Shown here piece by piece: positions 914 through 5,537 of a DNA stretch of 39,145 nt (its first letter is position 1; each line of letters opens with the position of its first letter). The notes beneath the pieces were generated by a model that had not been told where the DNA came from, did not search any database, and was given only the letters and a program-made list of their open reading frames with translations. The translations under genes and the position numbers were made by a program. This DNA comes from Nitrospirales bacterium (GTDB taxonomy: Bacteria; Nitrospirota; Nitrospiria; Nitrospirales; UBA8639). Location of the stretch: contig BQIV01000007.1 in NCBI GenBank assembly GCA_021604005.1, forward strand, positions 92,629 to 131,773, given 5' to 3'.

Positions 914-1990
914 ATGATGCATACAGGCTTTTCCAAGAGAATCATGTTTGTGGGAATAATATTGGGAGCTCTTGCGGGACTTTTCGTGGGGGCAACCGAG
1001 TCAAGGGGCCAGGACAGTGTCCCGCCAGAGCAGGTTGCCGCCCACGTTCATGCAGTGATTGAAGCGGATAGGTCTCTGTATACCGAGTTTGTCGTGGAGC
1101 GGTTACAACAGGCAGGCAAAGTTATTGCCTCACGACATTGGAAGAATAGATCTCAGCTTCCCCTTCCAGCTCAAATGCTCATGTTTGCGGGACTTGAAGT
1201 GGAAGGCATGGGGTCGGGTTTGAAGTATCGACTGGCAAGTCTATGGCCCCTTGAGGAAGAAAATGGTCCAGCCAATGACTTCGAAAAAGCAGGCTTGGAG
1301 GTGGTAGCCGATGATCCGAGCGAGGTCTATTCGGGAATGATAAAGAGGGGGAAACAGAAGTATTTTAAAGCGATCTATGCCGATAAGGCTGTTTCTCAAT
1401 CCTGTGTCGAGTGTCATAATGGACACTTACTCAGTCCGAAGCGGGACTATAAGCTTGGCGATGTGATGGGCGGGGTTATCATCTCCTTCCCAGTAGATGA
1501 TGCTATCTCATTGGAGCAGGTTGCTGCCTATGTTCATGCAGTGATTGAAGCGGATAGGACGTTGTACACCAAACTTGTCGTGGAGAGGATGCAACAGGCA
1601 GGAATAGTCCTTGCCACACAAAATTGGAAGAAGTATAGATCTCAGCTTCCCCTTCCAGCTCAGATGCTCCTGCTTGCGGGACTCGAAGTGGAAGGCATGG
1701 GGTCAGGTTTGAAGTATCGACTAGCAAGTCTATGGCCCCTTGAGGAAGAAAATGGCCCAGCCAATGACTTCGAAAAAGCAGGCTTGGAAGTGGTAGCCGA
1801 TGATCCGAGCGAGGTCTATTCGGGAATGATAAAGAGGGGGAAACAGAAGTATTTTAAAGCGATCTATGCCGATAAGGCTGTTTCTCAATCTTGTGTCGAG
1901 TGTCATAACGGACACCTACTCAGTTCGAAGCGGGACTTTAAGCTTGGCGATGTGATGGGCGGGGTCATCATCTCCTTCCCCATAGAATGA
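914..1990 (+). CDS. Exported tandem DUF3365 (Tll0287-like) c-type haem protein
   Basis: This is a 358-residue secreted protein made of two consecutive DUF3365 domains. The family is a PAS-like haem-binding sensor fold, usually present once, either alone or at the N-terminus of signalling proteins. The start is placed at ATG 914 because GGGAGG at 901-906 sits 7 bases upstream; an in-frame upstream codon at 884 lacks this. A hydrophobic signal segment follows (about residues 8-30). Domain 1 covers roughly residues 38-195 and domain 2 residues 200-358. Each contains one CVECH motif (codons from 1403 and 1892) for covalent haem c attachment. The two copies are offset by 489 bases. Their C-terminal halves are identical in protein over about 80 residues, while the N-terminal halves differ. 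It is probably a periplasmic redox or gas sensor, or an electron-transfer protein; no kinase or other output domain is attached, so the role is open. Confidence 0.85.
   Translation: MMHTGFSKRIMFVGIILGALAGLFVGATESRGQDSVPPEQVAAHVHAVIEADRSLYTEFVVERLQQAGKVIASRHWKNRSQLPLPAQMLMFAGLEVEGMGSGLKYRLASLWPLEEENGPANDFEKAGLEVVADDPSEVYSGMIKRGKQKYFKAIYADKAVSQSCVECHNGHLLSPKRDYKLGDVMGGVIISFPVDDAISLEQVAAYVHAVIEADRTLYTKLVVERMQQAGIVLATQNWKKYRSQLPLPAQMLLLAGLEVEGMGSGLKYRLASLWPLEEENGPANDFEKAGLEVVADDPSEVYSGMIKRGKQKYFKAIYADKAVSQSCVECHNGHLLSSKRDFKLGDVMGGVIISFPIE
1195..1985 (+). repeat. Intragenic tandem duplication, 489-bp period
   Basis: Bases around 1195-1430 recur almost unchanged at about 1684-1919. The differences I see (for example tcg/tca, ctg/cta, ggt/ggc, gag/gaa, tcc/tct, aat/aac) are all synonymous third-position changes. 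The preceding parts of each copy (about 1030-1190 and 1515-1680) are more diverged and include a one-codon length difference. This pattern points to duplication followed by gene conversion or strong purifying selection on the haem-binding half. Confidence 0.9.
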
Positions 1991-4609: not shown

Positions 4610-5537
4610 TTACGGTGCGTTCACGAGCGTAAAAGAAAACTCCGCATGTTGCCCCTCGTTGACTTCTACCAGCATAGCGGCAACCGTATGCTCTCCCCCT
4701 GGTACTTGAAGTCTCGTGACATTGGCTGCTCCCTTGTGAAAATGAGGCCAGAAAGGCGGTTGATCAATCACCAGTGTGTGCTTATCTCTCTGGATGAGGA
4801 GCATTGGTTTTGTGAAAGCAAGCGCCGCCTCTCCGATAGCGTGATGAATGACCTTAAACCCTTTTCGTTTTTTGGGATTCTGATAATACCGAAGGTTGGC
4901 ATGGGTGACGAACACGATGGCCCGGCAGGATTTTCTTTTTGCATATTGCACACCGGCTTGAATCCAGGCTTCATTGGCTCTCATCCGCTTTTCATGACTC
5001 TTTCGGGTTTTGGGGTCCTTTTTGAGTTTGGTTTCCGTTCCCACGACATGAAGAGTGAGAAACAAAATATTTCCCAGAACACAGGCTATGTTTTCCACAA
5101 ACGTGTGATATGCGTTGCCGCTGATGGCCTGGTTCAACACTGGTCGTGGAAGTGTTCCCAGGGTGGTTGGGTGATCTTGAGAAAAAAAGAGTTTCCGAAT
5201 CATAGCTAAGGTATTGGCTTGAGCTTTCGGGCTCTGTTTTCCCTTGCCGCAATCCACCCAATCATTGTCTCCAGGGGGTGTACACGACTGGACACTGAAA
5301 TGTATTAAGATTGCCTTTAACCTTTTGAAAGATCTCCCTCTCGCAAGGGGTCTTTCCGGCTTTGAGATCACCGACATGAAAGAGCAGAGAAGGCTTGATC
5401 GCATTAATCCTCTGAATCAGCTTAGGGAACTGCTGCTGGTCTTTGGGGCTATAGGGGACATCTCCCATCACCACAAACGCGAAAGCGCTGTTCTTTGGTT
5501 GGGCGCCACGAGTGGTCATCGTTGGGGGCTTGATCAT
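4610..5537 (-). pseudogene. Calcineurin-like metallophosphoesterase, split by a 1-base frameshift
   Basis: Two overlapping minus-strand frames together make one metallophosphoesterase of about 308 residues. The first (start ATG 5537) carries VVMGDVPYSP and FHVGDLKAG, the metal-ligand Asp motifs, and runs to VVYTP before reading out of frame to a stop at 5262. The second frame resumes with GDNDWVDC, the next conserved block of the family, and continues to 4610. The junction is at a G5 run at 5274-5278 on the plus strand. Removing one of these bases restores VVYTPGDNDWVDC exactly. All else appears intact, so this is either a recent inactivation or a homopolymer base-calling error. No signal peptide or good ribosome site is seen at the proposed start. 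Substrate unknown. Confidence 0.8.

Follow-up and report, generated by a model that had tools for sequence, protein, structure and literature searches.

Tll0287-like domains (PF11845, formerly DUF3365; also termed sCache_heme) have only recently been described as haem-carrying Cache domains. A CXXCH motif is present in 99% of the sCache_heme members (PMC12889525), and the founder of the family, Tll0287 (PDB entry 5b82), is a stand-alone exported protein in which this motif resides on a short helix of an inserted loop of the Cache fold (PMC12889525). Stand-alone members have been characterized as redox-like, and those fused to signalling modules (cluster 2) bind NO (PMC12889525); the word "tandem" does not occur in the text of that paper. 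The Geobacter chemoreceptors GSU0935 and GSU0582 (3b42, 3b47) also possess a Cache-like domain with a haem c and N-terminal helices above the haem. In the dimers of these domains, the two N-terminal helices are swapped, with the haems placed between helices from one chain and strands from its partner (PMC8396549).

The gene that we describe here, from a Nitrospirales bacterium (GCA_021604005.1), encodes two such domains in a single chain instead of the one found in Tll0287, with which it shares a predicted Cache fold and the placement of the CXXCH motif but only about 12-15% identity. While the GSU0935 and GSU0582 domains belong to membrane chemoreceptors and pair as swapped homodimers, the Nitrospirales gene codes for a soluble-type tandem without a signalling domain. 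The window, i.e., the whole stretch of DNA that was analyzed, comprises 39,145 nt of the forward strand (BQIV01000007.1:92,629-131,773).

Organization of the tandem gene and its surroundings

Translation of the tandem gene (Table 1) can start at ATG 914 or ATG 917, which follow a good ribosome-binding site (AGGGAGGTG); the list of open reading frames also permits a start at GTG 884. The hydrophobicity of the N-terminal segment peaks at 2.3 on the Kyte-Doolittle scale over 19 residues starting at residue 10, and a lipobox Cys is absent from this segment. The protein is thus predicted to be secreted or exported.

Table 1. Positions of the tandem gene and its parts within the window.
Feature	Position	Strand	Remarks
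Tandem Tll0287-like (sCache_heme) gene	914..1990	+	One ORF, 358 aa
Putative signal peptide or membrane-anchoring segment at the N terminus (MMHTGFSKRIMFVGIILGALAGLFVGATESRGQD) and short lead	914..1027	+	Kyte-Doolittle
Copy 1 (R1), Tll0287-like domain	1028..1513	+	Includes the linker VDDAISL (DDAISL) into copy 2
Copy 2 (R2), Tll0287-like domain	1514..1987	+	
R1 front	1028..1186	+	Helix alpha1, loop, start of alpha2; 13 aa differences from R2, one codon fewer; faster-changing copy
R2 front	1514..1675	+	Additional Tyr codon 1634-1636 (3-nt indel)
R1 core	1187..1435	+	83 codons; protein same as R2 core, 8 synonymous differences
R2 core	1676..1924	+	Protein identical to 1187-1435
R1 CVECH haem-c motif	1403..1417	+	Residues 164-168
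R2 CVECH haem-c motif	1892..1906	+	Residues 327-331
R1 tail	1436..1498	+	Counterpart in R2: 1925-1987; four aa differences

The neighbours, mostly housekeeping genes of an ordinary kind, comprise pyruvate-dehydrogenase-type E1/E2, a lipoyl-synthase-like radical SAM protein, an M48 peptidase and LemA, an MscS channel and, 20 kb off, a small cytochrome-c-like ORF. None of them indicates a specific pathway for the tandem protein, and neither a tRNA nor an Rfam family was found within the window. A perfect 12-nt inverted repeat (ACGCCCTTCGGG/CCCGAAGGGCGT) of terminator- or operator-like appearance occupies 791-824, some 90 nt ahead of the start codon. Downstream, a strong terminator-like hairpin (2156-2184; 12 pairs and a T-rich tail) is located inside a 105-aa ORF (2016-2333); because of this position, the ORF may be no gene, and the tandem transcript may end at the hairpin. 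A phosphoesterase-like gene on the minus strand (4610-5537) seems to be interrupted by a single frameshift around position 5280: the frame 5262-5537 ends with ...CPVVYTPWRQ, and the overlapping frame 4610-5404 continues with ...CTPPGDNDWVDC. It seems to be either a pseudogene or the product of a sequencing error.

Two predicted haem domains of the Cache fold

Both copies are recognized by the PF11845 profile (R1 with 61.4 bits, R2 with 58.7 bits, at a gathering cut-off of 24.1), and each carries the CXXCH motif of this family in the form CVECH. The four Cys residues of the protein all reside in these two motifs; an axial Cys outside of CXXCH, as in the Cys/His ligation of the Tll0287 type, is absent. 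Judged by its motifs, the protein would hold two haems c, in agreement with the di-haem protein envisaged from the sequence alone. No HAMP, kinase, MCP or GGDEF/EAL output domain was found by Pfam in ORF 914-1990.

AlphaFold modelled the single domain with a pLDDT of 94.7 and a pTM of 0.89, and the tandem protein with values of 88.7 and 0.86; each copy reached a pLDDT near 95, and disorder was restricted to the first 32 residues. The pTM of the tandem model suggests a defined packing of R1 against R2. Each copy has its own helix alpha1 (residues 38-66 and 200-228) and forms a confident, complete Cache domain; the dCache layout, in which two Cache modules have one long N-terminal helix in common, was not seen in this model. 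In the model of R2, a short inserted helix (125-133) bears the CVECH motif. While a sequence search of the PDB yielded no relative, fold searches retrieved Tll0287 (5b82) as the best match (Foldseek E 1.9e-4; VIA Z 10.9, 147 residues), followed by the haem sensor domains of GSU0935/GSU0582 and then by WalK-type Cache domains. By spacing alone, M51 of the domain, which is located in the second helix and precedes the motif His by 80 residues, may correspond to Met60 of GSU0935/GSU0582 (84 residues). In each domain, M51 is the candidate distal ligand of the haem.

Differences between the two copies

R1 and R2 resemble each other in frame over 300 nt at 96% identity and 119 nt at 83% identity, which excludes chance as the source of their likeness. 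They were reported in the sequence-only reading as being 489 bases apart; this spacing applies to the back, but it is 486 nt in the front, and the difference stems from one clean 3-nt indel (GAA---TAG in R1, GAAGTATAG in R2) that provides R2 with one residue more. The same reading correctly noted the amino acid differences and the extra residue in the N-terminal halves. Its statement that the haem-binding half differs only silently is right for the core; it fails in the tail that follows CVECH, where four replacements (P/S, Y/F, V/I, D/E) are found. Likewise, seven of the silent core differences affect third codon positions as claimed, but the remaining one is a first-position change between the Leu codons TTA and CTA.

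As determined by Nei-Gojobori counts, the front (53 codons) has a dS of 0.36 and a dN of 0.12 (dN/dS 0.33), while the core has a dS of 0.165 and not a single replacement (dN/dS 0). The contrast proposed between the two halves of the domain is therefore present between front and core, but the tail (21 codons; dS 0.15) departs from it with a dN/dS of 0.59, a value derived from 63 nt only. In all three segments dN/dS stays below 1. Most of the change is contained in the first 40 codons, which have a dS of 0.47 and a nucleotide identity of 82.5%, compared to about 95% beyond them.

Plain counts against living relatives indicate which of the copies changed. Of the 13 positions at which the fronts differ, eight near relatives share four to seven with R2 and one or two with R1; measured against outside copies, dN amounts to 0.26-0.36 in R1 and 0.17-0.25 in R2. 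The proposal that the front halves diverge much faster than the core was thus borne out, chiefly by change in copy 1. H21 and E36, which are common among the relatives (present in 101 and 115 rows, respectively, out of 119), are missing in both R1 and R2; since both copies have lost them, relaxation of the front may have started before the duplication. A paralogue that donated either front was considered and rejected, the other domains of the genome having at most 71% protein identity.

Rate contrast relative to the family

When single-domain relatives were compared in 27 close and independent pairs, the pooled dN/dS was 0.077 for the front, 0.110 for the core and 0.061 for the tail. The core is thus the most variable segment in single-copy members of PF11845, and the pattern of R1 and R2 is the opposite. 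At the family rates, the fronts of R1 and R2 should differ by 3.3 replacements, compared to the 13.5 that were seen (P 1e-5), and the cores by 3.5, compared to none (P 0.03); the split of replacements between front and core (13,0) differs from that of the pooled family (89.7/233.3) with a Fisher P of 1e-7. These P values serve as guides, since the tests treat changes as independent and the segment borders were drawn from the data, and the front excess depends on a small sample of 13 changes. We rejected an explanation of the contrast by a conservation gradient, as the front is conserved in the family as much as the core, or more.

Other duplicates were compared as well. In the only other tandem gene that we found (genome G005; see below) and in three pairs of adjacent genes (L157, L160, L049), the core ranks lowest in conservation, except that core and tail are nearly level in L049. 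By this comparison, which had been proposed as a check for even divergence, the reversed pattern is real and specific to gene 914-1990. What is unusual about this gene is the fast front, mostly that of copy 1, and the core requires just ordinary constraint, perhaps aided by partial gene conversion.

The sequence-only reading attributed the contrast to selection that specifically holds the two haem pockets identical while the fronts specialize for different partners. Not one replacement in 83 codons despite eight silent changes, two intact CVECH motifs and fronts that differ at conserved positions speak for such selection. We nevertheless consider it unlikely: the core is the segment that normally changes faster, its deficit of replacements attains just the P value given above, the identical run begins in the middle of a helix and takes in parts remote from CXXCH, and the residues right after this motif differ between the copies. 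Special selection for two identical pockets is hence neither required nor demonstrated by the sequence comparisons, and partial gene conversion would account for the core equally well.

Age of the duplication and possible gene conversion

R1 and R2 are mutual nearest relatives (about 90% identity; the next relative has 75%), and their overall dS is 0.22, compared to roughly 0.9-1.2 or higher between them and the closest copy from outside. On the basis of these synonymous distances, the duplication is young. Since few core replacements are expected in young copies under ordinary constraint, the near-identity of the cores can be attributed to these two factors, possibly together with partial gene conversion.

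In its full form, gene conversion would imply an older duplication whose age shows in the fronts, with one core having recently overwritten the other and only silent core changes having arisen since then. The lower dS of the core relative to the front, and to its first 40 codons in particular, is in keeping with such an event, as are a perfect run of 101 nt and unusual residues, such as L76 and E77, that both cores have in common, where the relatives have I and Y. The border between front and core lies inside helix alpha2, away from any structural border, and suits recombination as well as selection. The best synonymous breakpoint is at codon 32 (9.5 of 22.5 sites changed, compared to 11 of 83), but this contrast is non-significant (breakpoint scan P 0.075; Fisher P 0.12-0.18), and conversion leaves the excess of front replacements at the front's own dS unexplained. 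We regard it as a serious contender whose chances fall somewhat short of even.

Rarity of tandem forms

The genome from which the gene originates contains 12 PF11845-type domains according to the Pfam profile. To find further tandem genes, we used a circularly shifted query that spans the domain junction against 48 genomes of the family and 235 of the order. An in-frame junction match was obtained in 2 of the 235 genomes, i.e., the one studied here and G005, and the 127 distinct domain ORFs in the fetched loci included two tandem genes and 122 complete single domains. Within this order, tandem forms are thus as unusual as had been presumed. A scan of genome contigs with the domain alignment returned 80 loci, mostly from Nitrospirota, and none of them was a tandem; the same type of scan with the tandem protein as the query gave no match. 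Plasmid records yielded distant single-domain matches only, none over 80% of the query. The named relatives are chiefly metagenome genomes of Nitrospirales/Nitrospirota.

The tandem gene of G005 (L070:1899-3020), which comes from the same order and family of genomes, is likewise one ORF with two full domains and two CXXCH motifs, but its copies are far more diverged (39% identity) and evenly so (front 42%, core 35%). In a tree, R1 and R2 stand together and the G005 halves are placed elsewhere on long branches; since the latter do not group with R1 and R2, the G005 tandem looks like a separate, older event. An adjacent, frameshifted second DUF3365 copy was observed in another genome (L039/L048; G056:C36), and L157, L160 and L049 represent separate adjoining DUF3365 genes in other Nitrospirales. 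From these adjacent copies, local duplication appears to recur in the DUF3365 family. In the source genome itself, two divergent DUF3365 domains occur in long frames of 571 aa (L005, contig C2) and at least 710 aa (L002, contig C33; 830 aa in the profile search of the genome), which are probably receptors with output domains.

The draft nature of the source assembly (92 contigs; 1.66% contamination) and the lack of the tandem in the four other genomes of the genus raise the question of whether assembly or binning had joined a one-domain gene in two variants from different strains. This is very improbable, since R1 and R2 are joined in frame through a new linker, and R2 precisely lacks the signal peptide. 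Moreover, a chimera of two strains should not yield a rate contrast opposite to that of the family, and an independent in-frame tandem is present in G005. A duplication of a single copy by the assembly, which the sequence-only reading had named as a possible objection, is unlikely, since R1 and R2 differ at 38 sites and by an indel, R2 has no signal peptide and the frame continues through the new linker.

Discussion

Gene 914-1990 is a real, rare and young duplication in a known haem-domain family, and the contrast between its segments is unusual, albeit based on a small sample. We favor, with a probability of roughly 0.6, a lineage-specific internal tandem duplication that resulted in a fused two-haem periplasmic protein, with purifying selection acting on both haem sites and a front that changed fast after the fusion. 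According to this scenario, a stand-alone exported Cache domain with a c-type haem would have been duplicated internally, converting a one-haem into a fused two-haem protein, and ordinary purifying selection would have retained both haem sites. After the fusion, replacements in the front (alpha1, the loop and the start of alpha2) would have accumulated at about four times the family norm, mostly in copy 1. In solved relatives, this segment covers the haem and forms the helix-swapped dimer contact; the likely cause would be that a chain with two domains no longer needs a symmetric homodimer surface, or needs another one. The divergence of the front may accordingly be tied to a freed or rebuilt dimer surface of copy 1.

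Most likely, the protein acts in the periplasm as a two-site redox or electron-transfer haem protein, like the stand-alone members; the absence of a signalling domain speaks against a receptor. As it has no Cys for ligation of the Tll0287 type, its likeness to Tll0287 in redox function would be one of analogy. A bolder version of these events, in which a helix-swapped homodimer domain was fused into a two-haem pseudo-dimer, one N-terminal helix set was rebuilt under positive selection and the cores were homogenized by gene conversion, strikes us as quite doubtful; if true, the gene would offer an evolutionary snapshot of the transition from a homodimer to a built-in heterodimer. Nitrospirales genomes often hold several PF11845 domains, and a young two-haem fusion with one fast front offers a natural way to find out if their N-terminal helices function in dimerization or in haem access.
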